From Flavobacteriales bacterium (lineage in GTDB: Bacteria > Bacteroidota > Bacteroidia > JANQJC01): DNA of 35,647 bases. Below the pieces are notes generated by a model. That model had not been told where the DNA came from. It searched no databases and saw only the letters and a program-made list of their open reading frames with translations. The stretch lies in the NCBI GenBank assembly GCA_028281825.1, contig JANQJC010000121.1:1-35647 (forward strand), written 5' to 3'. The position numbers and the translations under genes were made by a program. This document shows, piece after piece, positions 7,688 to 35,647 of the stretch. Position 1 is the stretch's first letter, and the number at the start of each line of letters is the position of its first letter.

Positions 7688-8464
7688 ATGGAAATAATTA
7701 TTCTTTTGGTGGGTGGTGTCATTATTGCTTTGGTGGCGAGGGCTGCGTCGAAAAAGAAGGCAAAAGCAGTGGCGAAGCCTTTTACCGATGCCGAAAGGGA
7801 AATACTGCAAAAACATGTGCTATTCTATCAAAAGCTGAATGAGGAGGAAAAGGTTGAGTTTGAGAAAAGGGTTCACCATTTCTTGCAAAATGTGACTGTT
7901 ACAGGGGTGAAAACGGAGATTGAGGATATGGATAGGGTGTTTGTGGCGGCTGGAGCAATTATCCCCGTGTTTGCATTTAAAGGGTGGGAGTATCGCAATA
8001 TCAATGAGGTATTGATATATCCGGGCTCGTTTAACAGGGATTATGAAATAGAGGGGAAGGATCTGAATACCTTGGGAATGGTAGGTGGTGGTGCGATGAA
8101 CAATATTATGATACTCGCCAAGAATAGCTTGCGAAATGGTTTTCTGAATACTACAGATAAATCGAATGTGGCGATACATGAGTTTGTGCACCTGGTGGAC
8201 AAAGACGATGGATATGTGGATGGTTGTCCTGAGACCTTATTGCCCTACAAGTATGCTTTGCCGTGGCTCAAACGGATACACCATGAGATAGCGCTGATAC
8301 ACGAAAAGGAGTCGGACCTTAACCCATATGGCGCCACCAATGAGGCTGAGTTTTTGGCGGTAGCAGCAGAGTATTTTTTTGAGCGGCCTGAGTTGATGCA
8401 GAGGAAAAATCCCGAGTTGTATAAGGAGTTGGAGAGGGTTTTTAAGCCAGAGCGGGAGGGGTGA
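7688..8464 (+). CDS. MtfA-like zinc metallopeptidase (peptidase family M90)
   Basis: 258-residue zinc peptidase. Residues 1-20 form a membrane helix (MEIIILLVGGVIIALVARAA) followed by a lysine-rich stretch, so the enzyme is probably anchored with its catalytic part in the cytoplasm. The zinc site HEFVH is at 164-168 (AIHEFVHLVD) and the third ligand is expected in NEAEFLAVAAEYFFE at about 219-221. This matches the M90 layout of E. coli MtfA, an aminopeptidase that also binds the Mlc repressor and so affects glucose uptake. The N-terminal helix is not in the E. coli protein but is common in Bacteroidota members. The Mlc link should not be assumed here, because this lineage lacks the same PTS circuit. 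The physiological substrate is unknown. Confidence 0.88.
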   Translation: MEIIILLVGGVIIALVARAASKKKAKAVAKPFTDAEREILQKHVLFYQKLNEEEKVEFEKRVHHFLQNVTVTGVKTEIEDMDRVFVAAGAIIPVFAFKGWEYRNINEVLIYPGSFNRDYEIEGKDLNTLGMVGGGAMNNIMILAKNSLRNGFLNTTDKSNVAIHEFVHLVDKDDGYVDGCPETLLPYKYALPWLKRIHHEIALIHEKESDLNPYGATNEAEFLAVAAEYFFERPELMQRKNPELYKELERVFKPEREG

Positions 8465-24013: not shown

Positions 24014-25510
24014 TTATTGAAGTATATCCCAATCTTCAAAACCCTTCAAAAAATCAATACTTGCTTGTAAGTCAGGGTACATAAACTTATCATTTTGTAC
24101 ATATTCCACCTTTTCTCTATACTGGGCCAAGAATTTTTCTAGTCTGGGTGATGTTTTCATAGGCCTGCGGAACTCTATCGCCTGGGCGGCAGTATATAGT
24201 TCTGTTGCCAATATACTATATAAGTTTTCTACCACTTTATAAGCCTTAGTTCCTGCATTGGCACCCATACTCACATGGTCCTCTTGTCCATTAGAGGTGT
24301 CAATAGTATCAACAGAGGCAGGGGTGCTTAGCTGCTTATTTTGGCTCACAGCAGCAGCTGCGGCATATTGAGGTATCATAAATCCAGAGTTCACCCCAGG
24401 TTCGGCTACCAGAAAGGGTGGTAGCTCTCTTTTACCTGAAATAAGCTGGTAGGTGCGTCTTTCAGAAATGCTACCCAATTCTGCGCCCGCTATGCATAAG
24501 GTATCGAAGGCAATGGCTAAAAATTCGCCATGAAAATTACCTGCTGAGATAATCATGTCTTCATCTGGGAAGATGATTGGATTGTCGGTAACTGAGTTTA
24601 TCTCAGTCTCAAAAGTATCACGTGTGGAGTACACAGCCTGCTTGGTTGCTCCGTGCACCTGTGGTATGCAACGGAAGGAGTAAGGGTCTTGTATGTGTTT
24701 TTTTACACGATTGATTAATTCGCTACCTTCCAGTAGTTGGCGAAAGACAGCAGCTGTTTCAATCTGCCCTTTGTGTGGTCTTACCAGTTGTATTCTCTCA
24801 TCAAAAGGCTCAATGCGCCCATCGTAGGCATCTAAAGAGAGAGCACCGATTATATCGGCAAACTTCACAAGGCGCTCCATGTGCACCAGGCACCATATAC
24901 CATAGGCTCCCATAAATTGAGTTCCATTGAGTAGCGCCAATCCTTCTTTGGATTTCAGGGTAATAGGTTCCCAATTGAGTGCTTTGAGTATATCTTCTGC
25001 TGCTGTCTTTTTTCCATTGAAGTACACTTCTCCCATACCAATTAATGGTAATGACAAGTGTGCCAAAGGGGCAAGGTCTCCAGAGGCGCCTAATGAGCCT
25101 ATTTGATAGATAACTGGCAGGATGTCCAGGTTATAAAAGTTCACTAGTCTTTCCACAGTTGCTGTTTGTACACCAGACTTTCCTTGAGATAGTGATTGTA
25201 TTTTGAGCACCAGCATAAGTTTCACAATTTCCTCTGGTACTTCATCCCCAAAACCGCAAGCATGCGACTTGACGAGGTTTTCCTGCAATTTTTCAAGGTC
25301 TGTTTCTGAAATATTTCTATCGTAAAGTGCACCAAATCCTGTAGTCACACCATATATAGGTTTCTCTGCTATGGCTATTTTCTTATCGAGGTATTCCCTG
25401 CATTTCTTGATGTTTTCAACAGCCTTTTCGGTGAGGCTTATCTTGCTTTTCTCACGTATTAATTTGCCTAGGTCTGCAACGGTGAGATGGTTGGTGCCGC
25501 ATTGATACAT
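24014..25510 (-). CDS. hutH: Histidine ammonia-lyase
   Basis: First enzyme of histidine breakdown, converting histidine to urocanate and ammonia through the MIO prosthetic group. That group is made by self-cyclisation of A142-S143-G144 in the visible GSLGASGDLAPLAH motif. Also present are YGVTTGFGALYD near the N-terminus and NGTQFMGAYG after the MIO site. 498 residues from ATG 25510 (MYQCGTNHLT) is a normal length; an ATG 8 codons earlier at 25534 would lie over the promoter element. No hutU, hutI or formiminoglutamate enzyme is in this window, so the rest of the route is elsewhere. Related ammonia-lyases acting on tyrosine or phenylalanine are an alternative. Confidence 0.92.
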   Translation of the reverse strand: MYQCGTNHLTVADLGKLIREKSKISLTEKAVENIKKCREYLDKKIAIAEKPIYGVTTGFGALYDRNISETDLEKLQENLVKSHACGFGDEVPEEIVKLMLVLKIQSLSQGKSGVQTATVERLVNFYNLDILPVIYQIGSLGASGDLAPLAHLSLPLIGMGEVYFNGKKTAAEDILKALNWEPITLKSKEGLALLNGTQFMGAYGIWCLVHMERLVKFADIIGALSLDAYDGRIEPFDERIQLVRPHKGQIETAAVFRQLLEGSELINRVKKHIQDPYSFRCIPQVHGATKQAVYSTRDTFETEINSVTDNPIIFPDEDMIISAGNFHGEFLAIAFDTLCIAGAELGSISERRTYQLISGKRELPPFLVAEPGVNSGFMIPQYAAAAAVSQNKQLSTPASVDTIDTSNGQEDHVSMGANAGTKAYKVVENLYSILATELYTAAQAIEFRRPMKTSPRLEKFLAQYREKVEYVQNDKFMYPDLQASIDFLKGFEDWDILQ

Positions 25511-25531
25511 ATTGGTGCTGTTTATTACCCA

Positions 25532-25539
25532 CAAATATA
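25532..25539 (-). promoter_or_regulatory. -7 element of the hutH promoter
   Basis: TATATTTG on the minus strand matches TAnnTTTG exactly, 21 bases before ATG 25510, giving a leader of roughly 15 bases. A clear -33 TTG is not found. It lies only about 40 bases from the oppositely directed comEC promoter candidate. Confidence 0.5.
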
Positions 25540-27757: not shown

Positions 27758-30700
27758 TTATCTCTTGTTATTGTATTCAGGACTCAAGTTCCTTTCTTGC
27801 CTTTCAATTGGTTTTACTTCATAATCCAATGGAGAGATAGCTTGGTTAGTCTTGTCATCTACATTTTCTATCACGCTCGTTTTAGTCTCTTCAGCATTTG
27901 GATTAGTGTTTTCAATCGGCCCTGCATCTTCAGGATATAGTGGCCCAACTTCTTCACCATAGCCTGGCGGTGGGTTCAACTCATACTCAGGATGCAACTC
28001 AGGTACTGGAACGTCCTCTGGCCTTACGTCATATGGCTCTTCAGGTAGGTTCTCATTGAAGTCAATATCCTGTGGAGCAAATTTCACAGCTTCATCAGCA
28101 GACTCCATCATCCTCTCAAACTTGGCGCTCTTCTTCATATTGCCCAGTTTTTTGCTGTCATCAGCTTTACCCATTGCAATCCAGCTAAAGGTAACACCTT
28201 CATTACTTGGGTTTTCAATTTCAAACCCTTCTTTAGTGATTTCTTTTAAGGTCAATACCTTACCCGTTTGTGCGGGAGTTACAACCACAATTGGGTCTTC
28301 ATTAGCACCTAAGCGGTTTTTAAATTCATCAGAGAATTCAATCCACTTAGAAGGAGTATAGATGTTGTCGGCACCAAAATCACTAATGTTTCTCAACTGA
28401 CTCTTCATTTCATCCATTTCTTCTTTCATCACCTTCAATGCACCAGTATTGTATATTGAAAGTTCACCATATCTAACACCTTTCTTGTTTGGTCCAGTCA
28501 AGTTGCTTGGAGTTTCTTCAGAAATAAATCCAACGTGGATTAGGTTTCTTTCGTCACCGTTACGCTTGTAATAATTCAACTCCAAGTCATCCAAAAATGC
28601 AACAGCACTCTCGTAATCATCACGCTCAAATTTTTGGATATCATGCTTTACATCACGTGTACTTACATAGATGATACCATAGCAACCAACGTAACCATTG
28701 GTGTAGAAACCATAGTATCCGGCAGATGGCATATCTGAACGAACAGCCTTTGAGTTGTAGTTTCTTATCCAACTGCTATCAACCATGCGCCATCCACCGC
28801 CATAACTTTGGAAATAGATACCATTGGCACCATGAGGCCTCAACCAACCATCATAAAGGTACAATCCGTTACCATCAAATAATGCTCTCGTAGAATTGTT
28901 ACCGCGACCGATATATAAGTTATTACCATCATAATAGTTCAAGTAAGTATGATAACCAGAAGCAGCGTCAATGTGTAAGTTACCATTGGTTGTAGCTACA
29001 GTGGCAATACTACCGTTATTAATATAGGCTCTGCCATTACCGCCAACTACAAGATACCTGCCCCAACTAACATTGGGTCCATGGTACGCACCACCCCTAA
29101 TTCTCAATGCGGCTTCGGATGTGCTAGCTGGGTCTAGGTAATAGCCTGTACTATTATAATCACGGAAAACGGGGAAGTTGGCACCACCATCATTTACAAT
29201 TACACCCACATCACTCCCTGACCTTCTGAAACGCGCAATTTCAGAAGAGTTGCTACCAGCTGCAATGTAGAACCTATTACTGTGGTACTCAATTTTACCC
29301 ATGTCGCCACTTGGGTTACCACTCCAACTTTCATTTCCACTTTCATACCAGTATAAGTTAGGAGACTGACCATCGGCCGTCTCACTGCGCAGGTGCCATT
29401 GCCTTGCATTGTTCAGGATACCAAACTCGTTACTACTTGTGGCATATAGGTATGCCCTTGGCGTAGTATTACCAGCTACAAGCCTCAAAGCTACATTACT
29501 GGTATTGCCTGAGCGCAAGTAAAAGTCAGTTGTGTTTACAGGATAAAGGTGCCAGCCAGTGCTACTCCAATATACACCATCATTAGTAAGCGGCCTTACC
29601 CAGTTGCCTACATAAAACTCACCATTAATGCGCCCCCTTCCAGAAACCCAAAACTCAGCTGATTGAGCACTAGAATATTGGTTTTGAATGCTTCCATTAT
29701 TTACATAATCGTGTAACCATCCATAGGCACTTGTCCAAATTTGGCCACTGCTATTCAATATCATTCTTCTGTTACCTGAGTTATCACCACCATATAACCA
29801 TACAAAAGGATAACCACCATTGTTGCTATATTGAGTAGTACCATCAGTTCTAAATACCATCTGGCGGCTGTTACCATATAACCTCACGTGGCCATTGTCA
29901 CTTGTTCCACCCCTGTACCAACCTGCGTTGTATATATTTTCTGCAGCGCGAATTCTATACAAATGTGAAGTTGAATTAGGATCCAGATAGTAACCTCCGT
30001 TATTCAAATCATAATAAATAGGCGAATATATACGCTCATTAACCCTTACATAGTTATCTCCCTCACCCACACTAAATATCTCAGTAGGCGAGCCAACGGC
30101 AGGTGAGTTGTTGTAGAAACGTACACCACCATAAGTAGGAGAAGCACCTATCTCAATACCTGTATGCCAGTTAACAGATAGTCTTGAATGCGTGCTATAA
30201 CCGTTATTGTAGTACTCTGTAAATATGGCGTAATATGGGTTGTCATCACTTCTGTAACCCCAAGTCAGCCAGTTATTACCTTGGCTGCCTGATGGATCTG
30301 AGTTACCACCAAGGTTTAGGTGTCCACCACTAATCTTCATTTTGTCATTAGCAGATGGGTTGGAGTTGCCCACACCCACGGCATCACCAGAGTTTGCAAG
30401 GTGCACTGTAGAGCCTGAACGTTGCCAGGCATTACCAATGCCATTAGGCAAGTCACCAGCTTGTATAGCAGAAGAAACAAATCTTGTGCCATTACCTCTC
30501 AGGTATTGACCAGAAGCAGCTGTATTACCAATTCTATAACCACTAGATGCATTGATGTCACCACTCACATCTAACCTTTGAGAAGGTGTGTTTGAACCAA
30601 TACCTACCGAACCACCAGTTGTCATAGTAAAGTGGCTGGCATCACCAACGCCTGATCCGTAGTTGATCTTGAATTTACGACTATCAGATTGGTCAATACC

Positions 30701-32623
30701 TATGGCGTAATGAGCATCACCCGGATCATGTAAACGAATGGCTACATCCAGGTTTTCCCTATATAATTCCAAAGCCTGCGCTGGAGTAGAAGTACCTACA
30801 CCGATATTACCACTAGAGTTGATTTCGAGTCCTGAACCAACTGTGGTACTTTGACGAATATGGAAACCATTACCACCATTAACACCACCTTCCCACCAAA
30901 CACCGGAACTCACACCACCTGATCTACCATAGCGAACACCAGCTGCACCACTGCTATTATTCCAAACAACATGTGGGTTGCTCAGCATAATACCATTAGC
31001 ACCTGCGCCTATCGTTACATAAGGTGTACCTGCCGTTTCTGAAGGTGAGCTTGTACCGTCACCCCAAAGAGAAGTATTCTTAACTACTAATTTATCCCAT
31101 CCACTAGTACCTGAAGTGTTTACCTCCAACTTACCATCTGGGACAGTAGTACCAACACCTACATTTGAAGTGCTTTCATCCAGGAACAACATTTCAGTGT
31201 CTGTTCCCCTGTAAAAACGCACATCGCCGTCAGCTGCTGTCAATTGCACATCATTACCACCTTCATCATATACTTCAGCAAGGGTTTGTTCGTCAGTGTT
31301 ATCCAAATATCCTGAAAGGTTCACGCTGTTTCCTGCCTCAATAGATAATGTATTACCCGATAAAGTCAGGTTTTGATCATCAGTGTTATCAAGATAACCA
31401 GAAAGGTCCACACTGTTTCCGGCTTCAATACTTAAGTCATTGCCAGCAAGTGTCAAGTTCTGGTCATCAGTGTTGTCTAAGTAACCAGAAAGGTCCACAC
31501 TGTTTCCAGCTTCAATACTTAGGTCATTACCACTAAGTGTTAGGTTCTGGTCATCAGTATTGTCCAGATATGGTACTAAACTCACACTGTTACCGTCTTC
31601 AATACTTAAGTTATTACTACTGATTGAAAGTGTTTGGTCGTCAGTGTTAACATATGAAGCAAGGTTCACACTATTACCATCTTCAATGGAAAGTGTGTTT
31701 GATGAAAGCGTTAATGTCTGGTCGTCAGTGTTGTCCTGCAATTCCGTTAGGTTAACATTATTACCACCTTCAATAGTCAATACGTTAGTAGTAGTGTTGT
31801 AGCTCAGAGTTTGGTCATCTGTATTTACATAGCCACTCAAGTCAACCGTATTACCTGCCTCAATTGATAAGTCATTACCGCTAAGTATCAATATCTGGTC
31901 ATCTGTATTGTCTTCCAGTTCACTCAGGTCAACAGAACCACCGTTTTGCAGTGCTAATGTGTTTGTACCTGCGGTATACGTGAGGGTTTGGCTATCAGTA
32001 TTATCTAAATAGGGAGCAAGACTCACACTATTACCGTCTTCAATGGTCAAGTTGTTTGAAGAAATAGATAGTGTTTGGTCATCTGTATTGTCTTGTAATT
32101 CAGTCAAATCAACAGTGCCACCGTTTTGTAGCGTCAAAATATTGGTTGTTGCATTGTAGCTTAAAGCTTGGTTATCGGTATTGTCCATAAAAGAGGCCAT
32201 ACTTAAAGTATTGCCATCTTCTATGATTAGGTCAGTACCTGATAAACTGAGGTTTTGGTCATCTGTGTTGTCCTGCAAATCATCCAAATCCACGGTGTGA
32301 ACGGTAGAACCTTCAGTAATGCTCAACTCGTTTGTAGTTGCGTTGTAACTGAAGTTGTTGATATAAGCCAGGTTTCCTGTAGCTATATCATACCAGGTAC
32401 CTCCGATGTTTACCTGAAACTGCTGAGTACCGGAAATGTAGCGAATACTACCAGCATTAGTGCTTGCAGTATTACCAACCCTTACAGCTCCATTAACATC
32501 TAATTTCTCAGAAGGAGTGGCACTGCCAACACCAACATTTTGGGCGTTTGATACAAAAGTTGCTGCAGTAACTAAAGTAAGAGTAACTGCTAAATTTGAT
32601 AAGAGAGCATAGACCTTTTTCAT
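27758..32623 (-). CDS. Giant tail-fibre-like secreted protein with peptidase S74 chaperone domain
   Basis: 1621 residues with a signal peptide (cleavage about SNAQ, residue 28). Then come a fibre-head motif NVGVGSATPSEKLDVNG; eleven tandem 29-31-residue repeats (118-440); further fibre motifs of the GxGxxxPxxxLxVxG type; tail-fibre phrases NNGGYYLDPNSTS and NSTGYYLDPASTS; and an intramolecular chaperone (peptidase S74) from S1321 (STRDVKHDI, with K1326 five residues on, matching the Ser-Lys self-cleavage pair). S74 domains trimerise and fold beta-helical fibres, then cut themselves off. Here 300 residues follow the site: a coiled coil, a beta-sandwich resembling H-type lectins (about 1424-1488), and an acidic proline-rich tail. 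No T9SS sorting domain is visible. No phage genes surround it, so it is probably a cell-surface fibre or adhesin. Role unproven. Confidence 0.85.
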   Translation of the reverse strand: MKKVYALLSNLAVTLTLVTAATFVSNAQNVGVGSATPSEKLDVNGAVRVGNTASTNAGSIRYISGTQQFQVNIGGTWYDIATGNLAYINNFSYNATTNELSITEGSTVHTVDLDDLQDNTDDQNLSLSGTDLIIEDGNTLSMASFMDNTDNQALSYNATTNILTLQNGGTVDLTELQDNTDDQTLSISSNNLTIEDGNSVSLAPYLDNTDSQTLTYTAGTNTLALQNGGSVDLSELEDNTDDQILILSGNDLSIEAGNTVDLSGYVNTDDQTLSYNTTTNVLTIEGGNNVNLTELQDNTDDQTLTLSSNTLSIEDGNSVNLASYVNTDDQTLSISSNNLSIEDGNSVSLVPYLDNTDDQNLTLSGNDLSIEAGNSVDLSGYLDNTDDQNLTLAGNDLSIEAGNSVDLSGYLDNTDDQNLTLSGNTLSIEAGNSVNLSGYLDNTDEQTLAEVYDEGGNDVQLTAADGDVRFYRGTDTEMLFLDESTSNVGVGTTVPDGKLEVNTSGTSGWDKLVVKNTSLWGDGTSSPSETAGTPYVTIGAGANGIMLSNPHVVWNNSSGAAGVRYGRSGGVSSGVWWEGGVNGGNGFHIRQSTTVGSGLEINSSGNIGVGTSTPAQALELYRENLDVAIRLHDPGDAHYAIGIDQSDSRKFKINYGSGVGDASHFTMTTGGSVGIGSNTPSQRLDVSGDINASSGYRIGNTAASGQYLRGNGTRFVSSAIQAGDLPNGIGNAWQRSGSTVHLANSGDAVGVGNSNPSANDKMKISGGHLNLGGNSDPSGSQGNNWLTWGYRSDDNPYYAIFTEYYNNGYSTHSRLSVNWHTGIEIGASPTYGGVRFYNNSPAVGSPTEIFSVGEGDNYVRVNERIYSPIYYDLNNGGYYLDPNSTSHLYRIRAAENIYNAGWYRGGTSDNGHVRLYGNSRQMVFRTDGTTQYSNNGGYPFVWLYGGDNSGNRRMILNSSGQIWTSAYGWLHDYVNNGSIQNQYSSAQSAEFWVSGRGRINGEFYVGNWVRPLTNDGVYWSSTGWHLYPVNTTDFYLRSGNTSNVALRLVAGNTTPRAYLYATSSNEFGILNNARQWHLRSETADGQSPNLYWYESGNESWSGNPSGDMGKIEYHSNRFYIAAGSNSSEIARFRRSGSDVGVIVNDGGANFPVFRDYNSTGYYLDPASTSEAALRIRGGAYHGPNVSWGRYLVVGGNGRAYINNGSIATVATTNGNLHIDAASGYHTYLNYYDGNNLYIGRGNNSTRALFDGNGLYLYDGWLRPHGANGIYFQSYGGGWRMVDSSWIRNYNSKAVRSDMPSAGYYGFYTNGYVGCYGIIYVSTRDVKHDIQKFERDDYESAVAFLDDLELNYYKRNGDERNLIHVGFISEETPSNLTGPNKKGVRYGELSIYNTGALKVMKEEMDEMKSQLRNISDFGADNIYTPSKWIEFSDEFKNRLGANEDPIVVVTPAQTGKVLTLKEITKEGFEIENPSNEGVTFSWIAMGKADDSKKLGNMKKSAKFERMMESADEAVKFAPQDIDFNENLPEEPYDVRPEDVPVPELHPEYELNPPPGYGEEVGPLYPEDAGPIENTNPNAEETKTSVIENVDDKTNQAISPLDYEVKPIERQERNLSPEYNNKR
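31304..32272 (-). repeat. Eleven tandem coding repeats of 29-31 residues in the fibre protein
   Basis: The repeats correspond to residues 118-440. Two types alternate. Type A is like DNTDDQNLTLSGNDLSIEAG and ends SVDLSGYL; type B is like DNTDNQALSYNATTNILTLQ and ends TVDLTELQ. Counting a degenerate B unit before residue 118, the order is B-A-B-A-B-A-B-A-A-A-A-A. The last three A units (31304-31564) are nearly identical in DNA as well, pointing to recent duplication. Every unit keeps the reading frame. Confidence 0.9.
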
Positions 32624-32719
32624 AAAATCAGAATTTTGACCAGTTTAGATTAACTATACAATAGCCTTAAAAATAAAATAAATTAATATAAAAATCAAGC
32701 TACTATAATGTTAATAACG

Positions 32720-32727
32720 CAAAAATA
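32720..32727 (-). promoter_or_regulatory. Candidate -7 element of the S74 fibre gene
   Basis: TATTTTTG on the minus strand fits TAnnTTTG, about 97 bases before ATG 32623. No good -33 TTG at 19-21 bases is seen. The 252-base gap 32624-32875 otherwise holds only the terminator of the upstream paralogue and AT-rich leader sequence. Confidence 0.35.
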
Positions 32728-32824
32728 GGTATTTGGTTCTAAATTTCCCATAACACTATGTAATTTTTAAGACAAACGGGGTGATTGTTCGATAAATATC
32801 GGGTTAATCGAAAAGTGGGAAAGC

Positions 32825-32856
32825 AAAAAGCCCCGAAAATTTTCGGGGCTTTTTTA
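32825..32856 (-). terminator. Rho-independent terminator between the two S74 genes
   Basis: AAAAAGCCCCGAAAA and TTTTCGGGGCTTTTT form a near-perfect palindrome with T runs on both strands, 20 bases past the stop of the upstream paralogue. It indicates that the two fibre genes are transcribed separately. Confidence 0.85.
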
Positions 32857-32875
32857 AGTATGCGGTTATCGTTTT

Positions 32876-35647
32876 TTATTCAGAATCACCCCTTTCAGTT
32901 GGCGCTTGATCTTTTTGATCTTTACCATGAGGATAATTTTCAGGGTAATTCATCTCACCTTCAGGAACAAGTTCCGGAATAATGATATTTTCATTATGTT
33001 GCGGTTTATGCAATTCATCATAATTCAAAGGTGGGTGCTCAGTAGCTTCTGGAGATGGAGATGGTGTGAAGTCTTCGGGTCTGCTACCTAACTCACTATC
33101 CTCTTTTCTGTAATGCGGGCGTGGCTCATCAGCTTGTGCAGCTTTTTCAGCAGACTCAAGCATCTCGCTGAACTTTTCGCTTTTGCTAATCTCTTTAATT
33201 TCCTTACCAACAGGCTGTGATTTACCCATTGCAATCCAACTAAAGGTAACACCTTCATTATTAGGGTTTTCAACCTCAAAACCCTCACGTGTTATAGTTT
33301 TTAAGTTCAAAGTTTTACCACTTTGAGAAGGAGTAACCACTACTATAGGGTCAGCACTACCTAGAGTGGTTTTAAACTCTTCTGAGAATTCAATCCATTT
33401 TGAATTGGTATAGATGTTGTCAGCACCAAAGTCGCTCACGTTTTTCAACTGGTTTTCAATATGCTCCACCTTATCTTTAAGAACTTTCAAAGCACCGGTA
33501 TTATATAAAGAAAGTTCGCCCAGCTTAACACTCTTCTTTTTTGGACCGGTTAAAGCGCCAGGTGTTTCTTCGGCTATAAAGCCCACTTGAATGGTTTTTT
33601 GAGGATCCTCATTACGCTTATAATAATTTAACTCTAAATCATCCAAGAAAGCTAAAGAACTTTCGTAGTCTTCTTGTTGGAATTTCTCAATGTCATGTTT
33701 TACATCTCTTGTACTTGTTGATAAGAAAGTATATCCTCCAACATAACCATTAGTCCATACACCCCAGTAGTAGTAAGCAGGAACAGCCACTTCAACACTC
33801 TTGCTGTTATAGCTTCTTAACCAACTGCTGTCGTACATGCGCCAGCCACCGCCGTAGCTTTGCCAGTATATACCACCACCACCATTCACTCTGTACCAGT
33901 CATTAACATAAGTAGTGTAGAAAACAGATGAACTGGCAGGATCAATATAATATCCGCTGTTGTTCTCATCATACCATGTACCATTAAACGCATAAGTATT
34001 GCCACGGAAGTAGTTATAATTATTGGTATAAGGGAACCATGAGTCGTTGCGTGAAGTATGGAAATAATTCGCCGCATTCATAGAGTAAATATTACTATGG
34101 CTGTTAGGATCTACATAGTAACCGCTGTTGTTGATGTCCGTTAAACCGTCAGCCCATAGCCTGTGATGTGAGAAGTACCACAACCAACCGTGGCTGTTAT
34201 TGTGAGCACCAATTTGTTGGCTTCCCCAGCCATGACTGCTATGGCCAACCATCATTGTGGTTCTGCTACCAGCATTAGGAGTATCATATTCTAATCCATA
34301 CCAACCATTTCTACTACCAGCAATTCTCCAGGCACCGTATGAACCGTTATTTACATAGAAATGAGAACCATTAGCGTGAGTAGAATAAATACCATGATAT
34401 CCAGCCATATTTGTCCAGGAATGGAATTGGTTGTAGTTACCCCACTCACCAGTTCTTATGTAATTGTTTCGGTTATAATAGTGCCTTGTGGTACTGTTTG
34501 GGTCAGTGTAATAACCACTATTATTGTAATCATAAACTATTGGTGAATACATACCATATATGGACCTTACCAGGTTATCACCATTACCAACTGAGAAAAT
34601 TTCAGTTCCCATATCATGGTTATTATAGAACCTAATACCATTATAGCTGTAATGGGCACCAAGTTTAATACCTGTGTGATATGCAATCCTCAAATCAGGG
34701 TATGGGTTACTCCATGCCCCACTTTCCTGGAAAATGGCATATGCGTGGTTTCCTTCGCCACTATTGCCACCCACACCGCTAAATTCAATGCGCCCAACTT
34801 GTGCGGCACCTGTAATATCAAAATTGGCACTTTGGTTACCACCCCATTGGTTTTGGATATAATTGCCGCTACCGCCTGGGATATCTCCTACCTGTATAGC
34901 AGAAGAAACAAACCTGGTACCATTACCCCTCAGGTATTGCCCTGAGGCAGCCCCGTTACCAATTCGATAACCACTGGAAGCATTGATATCACCACTTACA
35001 TCCAGTCTTTGGGCTGGGGTGTTAGATCCCAAACCTACTGAACCACCACTTGTCATAGTAAAGTGACTGGCGTCTCCTACATTGGCGCCATAGTTAATCT
35101 TGAATTTACCACCGTCAGAGCGGTCAATACCCATTGCGTAATGATAATCGCCCGGATCGTGGAAACGAATGGCTACATCCAGGTTTTGCCTGTATAATTC
35201 GAGCAATTGGGCAGGACCACTAGTACCCAAACCTATATTACCACCCGAGGTGACCTCGATACCTGAACTTTCCGCTGCGGTTCTCCTGATATGATAACCA
35301 CCTGAACCATTCACACCCGCTTCCCACCATTGGCCGGAAGAAACACCGCCAGACCTGCCGTAGCGGGTAGCAGCTGCACTGCCTGTCCAAACCACGTGTG
35401 GGTTGGCAATCATAATACCAGCAGCCTGCGCCCCGATAGTCACATAAGGAGTACCACCAGTCTCAGATGGAGAACTCAATCCATCACCCCAAAGTGAGGT
35501 GCTTTTTACAACAAATGGCGCCCAGGTACCGGTACCGCCAGTAATAACCGTAAGGTTACCCGTAGGGGTAGGTGTCCCGATACCCACATTACCGTTTGAT
35601 AGTATTCTCAATCTCTCAGCGTTACCAGTATACATTTCCAATCCATG
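32876..35647 (-). CDS. Second tail-fibre-like S74 surface protein (N-terminus cut by window edge)
   Basis: At least 923 residues. The frame is open to the last base, so the start and any signal peptide or repeats lie outside. It is a clear paralogue of the neighbouring gene: it shares the GTPYVTIGAQAAGIM and NPHVVW block, the NLDVAIRFHDPGDYHYAMGI block and the GASSGYRIGN-type fibre head. It carries three tail-fibre phrases (NNSGYYTDPNSTT, NNSGYYVDPNSHS, NNSGYYIDPASSS) against two in the neighbour. The S74 chaperone starts at STRDVKHDIEKF (serine codon 33713-33715, lysine codon 33698-33700). After the chaperone come a matching coiled coil, the lectin-like domain (KWIEFSEEFK, FSWIAMGK) and an acidic proline-rich tail with a different sequence. 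It probably works as a trimeric fibre like its neighbour. Function is unproven. Confidence 0.85.
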   Translation of the reverse strand, partial: HGLEMYTGNAERLRILSNGNVGIGTPTPTGNLTVITGGTGTWAPFVVKSTSLWGDGLSSPSETGGTPYVTIGAQAAGIMIANPHVVWTGSAAATRYGRSGGVSSGQWWEAGVNGSGGYHIRRTAAESSGIEVTSGGNIGLGTSGPAQLLELYRQNLDVAIRFHDPGDYHYAMGIDRSDGGKFKINYGANVGDASHFTMTSGGSVGLGSNTPAQRLDVSGDINASSGYRIGNGAASGQYLRGNGTRFVSSAIQVGDIPGGSGNYIQNQWGGNQSANFDITGAAQVGRIEFSGVGGNSGEGNHAYAIFQESGAWSNPYPDLRIAYHTGIKLGAHYSYNGIRFYNNHDMGTEIFSVGNGDNLVRSIYGMYSPIVYDYNNSGYYTDPNSTTRHYYNRNNYIRTGEWGNYNQFHSWTNMAGYHGIYSTHANGSHFYVNNGSYGAWRIAGSRNGWYGLEYDTPNAGSRTTMMVGHSSHGWGSQQIGAHNNSHGWLWYFSHHRLWADGLTDINNSGYYVDPNSHSNIYSMNAANYFHTSRNDSWFPYTNNYNYFRGNTYAFNGTWYDENNSGYYIDPASSSVFYTTYVNDWYRVNGGGGIYWQSYGGGWRMYDSSWLRSYNSKSVEVAVPAYYYWGVWTNGYVGGYTFLSTSTRDVKHDIEKFQQEDYESSLAFLDDLELNYYKRNEDPQKTIQVGFIAEETPGALTGPKKKSVKLGELSLYNTGALKVLKDKVEHIENQLKNVSDFGADNIYTNSKWIEFSEEFKTTLGSADPIVVVTPSQSGKTLNLKTITREGFEVENPNNEGVTFSWIAMGKSQPVGKEIKEISKSEKFSEMLESAEKAAQADEPRPHYRKEDSELGSRPEDFTPSPSPEATEHPPLNYDELHKPQHNENIIIPELVPEGEMNYPENYPHGKDQKDQAPTERGDSE

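Follow-up and report, generated by a model that had tools for sequence, protein, structure and literature searches.

Tandem S74-domain fibre proteins in a Flavobacteriales genome as probable members of an exported adhesin repertoire

Introduction

Why should a bacterial chromosome carry, side by side, two large genes whose products are built like phage tail fibres, and what might the cell do with them? The question is raised by a Flavobacteriales contig (C62) that we analyzed over its whole length of 35,647 nucleotides, hereafter the window, and that belongs to a source genome of 4.02 Mb in 144 contigs, 96% complete. The initial annotation of this DNA had described two adjacent paralogues, and both open reading frames are indeed present:

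27758..32623 (-): P0001, predicted exported S74 fibre protein, complete, 1621 aa
32876..35647 (-): P0002, its tandem paralogue, 923 aa, start lost at the contig edge
32820..32860 (-): terminator-like hairpin between P0002 and P0001, followed by a T-rich run (-20.2 kcal/mol, z -5.4)

Results

Locus and gene order

On the minus strand P0002 precedes P0001, with 252 bases between them. P0002 has no start codon because the contig ends within the gene, and a signal peptide can therefore be checked in P0001 only. The hairpin, which does not figure in the list of a simple hairpin scan, sits just past the stop codon of P0002, and because so strong a structure separates the two genes, P0001 probably has a promoter of its own.

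The neighbours on the contig encode PEP carboxykinase, ferritin, CorA, a TonB receptor, a ComEC-like protein, and similar chromosomal functions, and no phage structural genes adjoin the pair on this contig, the far side of the contig end being outside view. This housekeeping setting, together with the signal peptide of P0001, bears out the reading of the pair as chromosomal genes away from phage genes. Elsewhere in the window, a Peptidase M90 (MtfA-like) gene lies at 7688-8464 (+), with a weak ATLF match below cut-off that probably reflects a shared metallopeptidase fold, and an aromatic amino acid lyase gene (Lyase_aromatic, 620 bits) lies at 24014-25534 (-).

Signal peptide, base, and stalk

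The N-terminal part of P0001 divides into three segments:

32543..32623 (-): P0001 Sec signal peptide, residues 1-27, hydrophobic core, expected cut between SNA and QN (27/28)
32270..32542 (-): conserved N-terminal base, P0001 aa 28-118, near-identical in four paralogues
31259..32269 (-): stalk of ~29-residue repeats (xDNTDDQxLxLSGNxLSIExGNSVxLxxY), encoded by 87-nt repeat families

The annotated signal peptide of the first protein is of a normal kind, with a hydrophobic core and a Gln at the predicted cut, as the Q-rule leads one to expect in Bacteroidota/Bacteroidetes (PMC5837995). A simple script, used in place of a trained predictor, found a hydrophobic core with an Ala-Gln or Ser-Gln site in 18 of the 19 family N-termini that the source genome offers, the one exception (on contig C41) having an uncertain start codon. 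The base, of about 95 residues, is common to four paralogues at 84-91% amino acid identity, with dN/dS, where estimable, at most 0.08, a rough figure because synonymous sites are near saturation; these alignments indicate that the base of the four paralogues is under purifying selection. At E 1e-10, the P0001 base was absent from all other 374 genomes of our phylum sample.

Homology of the shaft to tail fibres of phages

Beyond the stalk lies a long shaft with repeated phrases:

28739..31162 (-): phage-like shaft, P0001 aa 488-1295, carrying two GYY-x-DP phrases as well as three P-xxx-L loops
29972..30010 (-): DLNNGGYYLDPNS phrase, P0001 aa 872
29123..29161 (-): DYNSTGYYLDPAS phrase, P0001 aa 1155
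34493..34531 (-): DYNNSGYYTDPNS phrase, P0002 aa 373
34100..34138 (-): DINNSGYYVDPNS phrase, P0002 aa 504
33932..33970 (-): DENNSGYYIDPAS phrase, P0002 aa 560

The five NNxGYYxDPxS phrases of the initial annotation are thus recovered as two GYY-x-DP phrases in P0001 and three in P0002, and the tail-fibre head motifs that it listed likewise hold, VG-x-G-xxx-P-xxx-L being found four times in P0001 and three times in P0002. The two proteins share two matching blocks, 59% and 56% identical, one at each end of the shaft, and the middle of the P0001 shaft (aa 893-1259) has no counterpart in P0002. Viral proteins carry the same elements: the GYY-x-DP phrase occurs four times in one long protein of Synechococcus phage DSL-LC03 and ten times in an S74 tail fibre encoded beside a tail-sheath gene on viral contig L065, and a tail-fibre protein of viral contig L064 is 45% identical to P0002 over ~115 residues. 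By these similarities the shaft modules and phage tail fibres are homologues, and the modules have likely been exchanged by phages and cells in the past.

A divergent S74 domain

Behind the shaft, each protein carries the domain on which the assignment to the S74 chaperones turns:

28388..28663 (-): S74 chaperone/autoprotease domain of P0001, Ser1321...Lys1326, with a predicted long helix at its end
33440..33715 (-): S74 domain of P0002, STRDVK, Ser645/Lys650

A search with the Peptidase_S74 model, which the initial annotation had proposed as a check, gives an equivocal answer. P0002 reached 25.4 bits with PF13884 in the genome search (E 5.4e-4 and 20.6 bits, against a cut-off of 22, when scanned as a whole protein), whereas the Pfam scan of whole P0001 returned no PF13884 match at E<=1, and its C-terminal piece alone gave E 0.0013 and 19.5 bits against the same cut-off of 22. 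Further comparisons agree with the annotated S74 domains and their intact Ser-Lys pair. In profile-profile comparison, the S74 domains of the pair match the other S74 domains of the genome with a probability of 92% (P 5.4e-7), STRDVK is present in both paralogues, and the Ser, the Lys (S+5), and one Gly are invariant over 26 sequences. A monomer structure model of the domain, with a C-terminal coiled-coil helix (pLDDT 77), found as its best solved match the MyRF ICA structure 7dc3 (prob 1.00, TM 0.61-0.66), with E 1.3e-3 to 2.5e-3, the best of which falls slightly short of 0.001. The match to the K1F endosialidase (3gw6) was weak (prob 0.33-0.80, E 0.24 or worse), and many viral S74 proteins were matched as well; this structural check is only partly independent, because the alignment used for modelling contained phage S74 rows. 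Profile, model, and conserved residues together support the view that the domain of the pair is a genuine, divergent S74.

Whether the domain also cuts itself is less straightforward. In the pair, Thr replaces the Asp that follows the catalytic Ser, and part of the usual P-E-x-V segment is missing, so that cleavage is not certain. The Asp is not universal among S74 sequences, as a Ser-Ser variant (L034) illustrates. In MyRF, changing either the Ser or the Lys abolishes cleavage (PMC8326128), and since the pair keeps both of these essential residues, we take self-cleavage to be likely by analogy.

C-terminal modules behind the S74 domain

The S74 domain is not the end of either protein:

28166..28387 (-): P0001 post-S74 beta domain, aa 1413-1486, ISDFGAD...FSWIAMGK
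33221..33439 (-): P0002 post-S74 beta domain
27761..28165 (-): P0001 acidic proline-rich tail, 135 aa, net charge -17
32879..33220 (-): P0002 acidic proline-rich tail, 114 aa, net charge -14

The two tails are only 29% identical. The domain before them, which its sequence suggests to be beta-rich, is found within the source genome only in P0001 and P0002 and occurs in 8 of the 385 sampled phylum genomes, the source genome included; in the seven others it lies near the C-terminus with, as judged by eye, no S74 directly upstream. It has no Pfam match and no convincing PDB match, the end of a cyanophage tailspike appearing at E 1.2 only, and an AlphaFold run on the S74 and beta-domain region, from two sequences, reached a pLDDT of 30. 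A lectin fold was considered for this domain and dropped, as no tested evidence supported it. Searches with the C-terminal 202 aa recovered no viral relative and, in the species-genome collection, which was scanned with short exact patterns that detect close relatives only, one weak relative by the S74 part only.

A dispersed repertoire

The pair is real as two genes, but it is part of a larger repertoire, with about 18 S74 proteins dispersed over the genome (17 PF13884 matches, plus P0001), nearly all of them exported by predicted signal peptide. Across the phylum, PF13884 is found in 106 of 390 sampled genomes, and the survey for tandem S74 genes suggested by the initial annotation shows that several genomes carry tandem sets. 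With at least 16 S74 proteins counted in this survey, the source genome ranks first or close to first in the phylum sample, equal to one other genome (at least 16). One such set in the source genome, at C16:123622-129618, comprises three tandem S74 proteins of ~655-670 aa whose N-terminal repeats are unlike those of P0001/P0002.

Five sibling S74 proteins end in matches, mostly weak, to the type A sorting domain of the type IX secretion system (T9SS):

C83:7302-9194, C30:1373-3331, C91:71911-74967, C98:16550-18937, C96:9633-10655: S74 proteins with T9SS sorting-domain matches

One of them (L024, 27.3 bits) reaches the cut-off of 27 of Pfam PF18962, three (L027, 29.5; L028, 26.9; L030, 28.3 bits) pass the cut-off of 23 of NCBIfam TIGR04183, and the fifth (L021) is under both. 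Self-cleavage at S74 in these five would strip off the export signal. L028 (C98:16550-18937) combines two YadA-head repeats above cut-off with the S74 domain and the T9SS sorting-domain match; such repeats are typical of surface trimeric adhesins. The genome itself encodes SprA and at least 150 T9SS sorting-domain matches.

Other members differ from the pair at their ends. Contig C91 combines a P0001-type base with a canonical S74 end, and two further bases, on C30 and C56, each run off their contig. Contig C10 (L049, 1-1917) opens with a shaft that is 87% nucleotide-identical to that of P0002 over 460 bases and ends, without S74, in three Cys-containing repeats whose match to dermatopontin is weak and under the cut-off (E 0.059), an end that is possibly an alternative fibre tip. 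The tips thus differ among C91, P0001/P0002, and C10, the C10 tip and any base not being on one contig. The truncated N-terminus on C30 would fit as the missing start of P0002, although exact overlap among the broken contig ends C62, C30, C10, and C56 was not found.

Discussion

The explanation that we consider probable, on sequence features and on analogy with a characterized system, is that P0001 and P0002 are exported, long, fibrous adhesins that are trimerised by S74 and differ by swapped shafts and tips. Three chains would wind into a trimeric beta-fibre with the S74 coiled coil as its nucleus; correct trimerisation would trigger a cut before Ser1321 in P0001 and before Ser645 in P0002; and the C-terminal piece, consisting of the S74 domain, the beta domain, and the acidic tail, would depart, leaving the fibre locked and its tip exposed. 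The base may anchor the fibre at the cell surface, and exchange of shafts and tips between paralogues could provide a range of binding specificities with which to attach to cells, glycans, or surfaces. An adhesive role is favoured because the shared base is under apparent purifying selection and the middle of the shaft varies between conserved ends, and a surface adhesin in particular because siblings carry T9SS matches and one of them YadA-head repeats. A point against this explanation is that P0001 and P0002 themselves gave no match to Por_Secre_tail or any other T9SS model in the Pfam and NCBIfam scans. It would also be odd for the beta domain, if it were the binding domain, to be lost on cleavage. 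The initial annotation had proposed that the cell exports self-assembling trimeric fibres; the predicted signal peptide and the S74 domain agree with the export and assembly parts of that proposal, and among the several roles it offered, an adhesive fibre now seems likeliest.

Among known systems, the closest is the mosaic adhesive trimer (MAT) superfamily of the predator Bdellovibrio bacteriovorus, described in 2024, whose members have a signal peptide, a conserved base, a trimeric phage-like shaft, and swapped S74 or other tips, and in which surface display and S74 autocleavage were demonstrated experimentally (PMC10769870). The pair resembles it in the signal peptide, the conserved N-terminal base, the phage-like shaft, and the swapped tips, and the copy numbers are comparable in form, 13 S74 and 8 non-S74 proteins in Bdellovibrio against about 18 S74 and at least one non-S74 here. 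However, the two belong to different phyla, the S74 domain of the pair is followed by the beta domain and acidic tail rather than being terminal, and several relatives of the pair bear T9SS-type ends. PDB chains of solved MAT tips gave no match to P0001 at E<=1. We regard the pair as presumable analogues of MAT in working principle, with trimeric adhesins displayed as a repertoire, and predation is not to be read from the resemblance. Phage S74 fibres (T5 pb1, the K1F endosialidase, T4-like long tail fibres) have in common with the pair the S74 fold, the Ser-Lys pair, and the GYY-x-DP shaft phrase, whereas the pair has in addition a signal peptide, a bacterial base domain, and extra C-terminal modules. 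YadA-type trimeric autotransporter adhesins have a base-stalk-head trimer design that the pair would share, but use a beta-barrel anchor where assembly of the pair would rely on S74; the Pfam and NCBIfam scans reported no YadA family match on P0001/P0002. MyRF, the eukaryotic S74/ICA protein, is like the pair in having sequence after S74 and in being its best solved-structure match, but it is a membrane-tethered transcription factor and no adhesin.

The most serious alternative keeps the surface fibres but makes S74 a non-cutting, trimerising clamp, with the beta domain forming the true binding tip and the acidic tail ending the fibre flexibly. The sub-threshold Pfam score of P0001, the S-T for S-D change, and the shortened segment all speak for it, as does the tip-like placing of the beta domain near the C-terminus of exported-looking proteins elsewhere, without a preceding S74. 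Yet both paralogues keep the Ser and Lys that are essential in MyRF (PMC8326128), the S74 region is strongly constrained in the pair, and L034, whose own cleavage is putative, shows that the Asp is not universal, so that we hold a mere clamp to be rather unlikely. A more speculative proposal couples self-cleavage to export: the module behind S74 (the beta domain and acidic tail in the pair, the T9SS sorting domain in the siblings) would carry the protein to the outer membrane or anchor it there, and autocleavage triggered by trimerisation would free or present the fibre, replacing a sortase-like cut. We hold this to be improbable. Slightly more doubtful still is an exported structural matrix, sheath, or set of gliding-associated filaments with no role in recognition; the T9SS/gliding protein SprA and the long repetitive stalk are compatible with it, but varied tips and shafts on a conserved base point to changing ligands and not a uniform lattice.

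Two further readings would take the genes out of the cell's own surface biology. Homology of the shaft to tail fibres of phage and viral contigs invites the idea of a prophage or its remains, but a signal peptide is unexpected in phage fibres built in the cytoplasm, the neighbours on the contig are ordinary chromosomal genes, some 18 paralogues are dispersed over the genome (five with T9SS sorting-domain matches), the C-terminal part has no close viral homologue, and the paralogues appear to be under purifying selection, all of which makes a prophage origin of the locus very unlikely. The initial annotation had also entertained that the fibres belong to an extracellular contractile device whose genes lie elsewhere, and S74 proteins do occur in some operons of extracellular contractile injection systems (PMC8213781). 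This suggestion fares worst: the 96%-complete genome has no match to Phage_sheath_1 (PF04984), and a signal peptide would export the protein apart from a device that is put together in the cytoplasm, which leaves it scarcely credible.

With the exported adhesin fibre as the preferred reading, the description of the system as little-described stands in part. The same design is known from Bdellovibrio (PMC10769870), and S74 genes, frequently arranged in tandem, are found in 106 of the 390 genomes of the phylum sample. However, the literature that we searched does not describe the end formed by S74, beta domain, and acidic tail, the apparent swapping of tips within one Bacteroidota genome, or the placing of S74 ahead of T9SS sorting-domain matches, and we found in it no published account of S74 proteins in Bacteroidota. 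If the preferred reading is right, how does an export signal come to lie behind a self-cutting domain while the fibre is nevertheless intact at the surface? MAT-like, phage-derived adhesin repertoires would then exist in Bacteroidota too, beyond Bdellovibrio, and the S74 genes carried by about a quarter of the sampled Bacteroidota genomes may underlie surface or cell recognition that can be tested.
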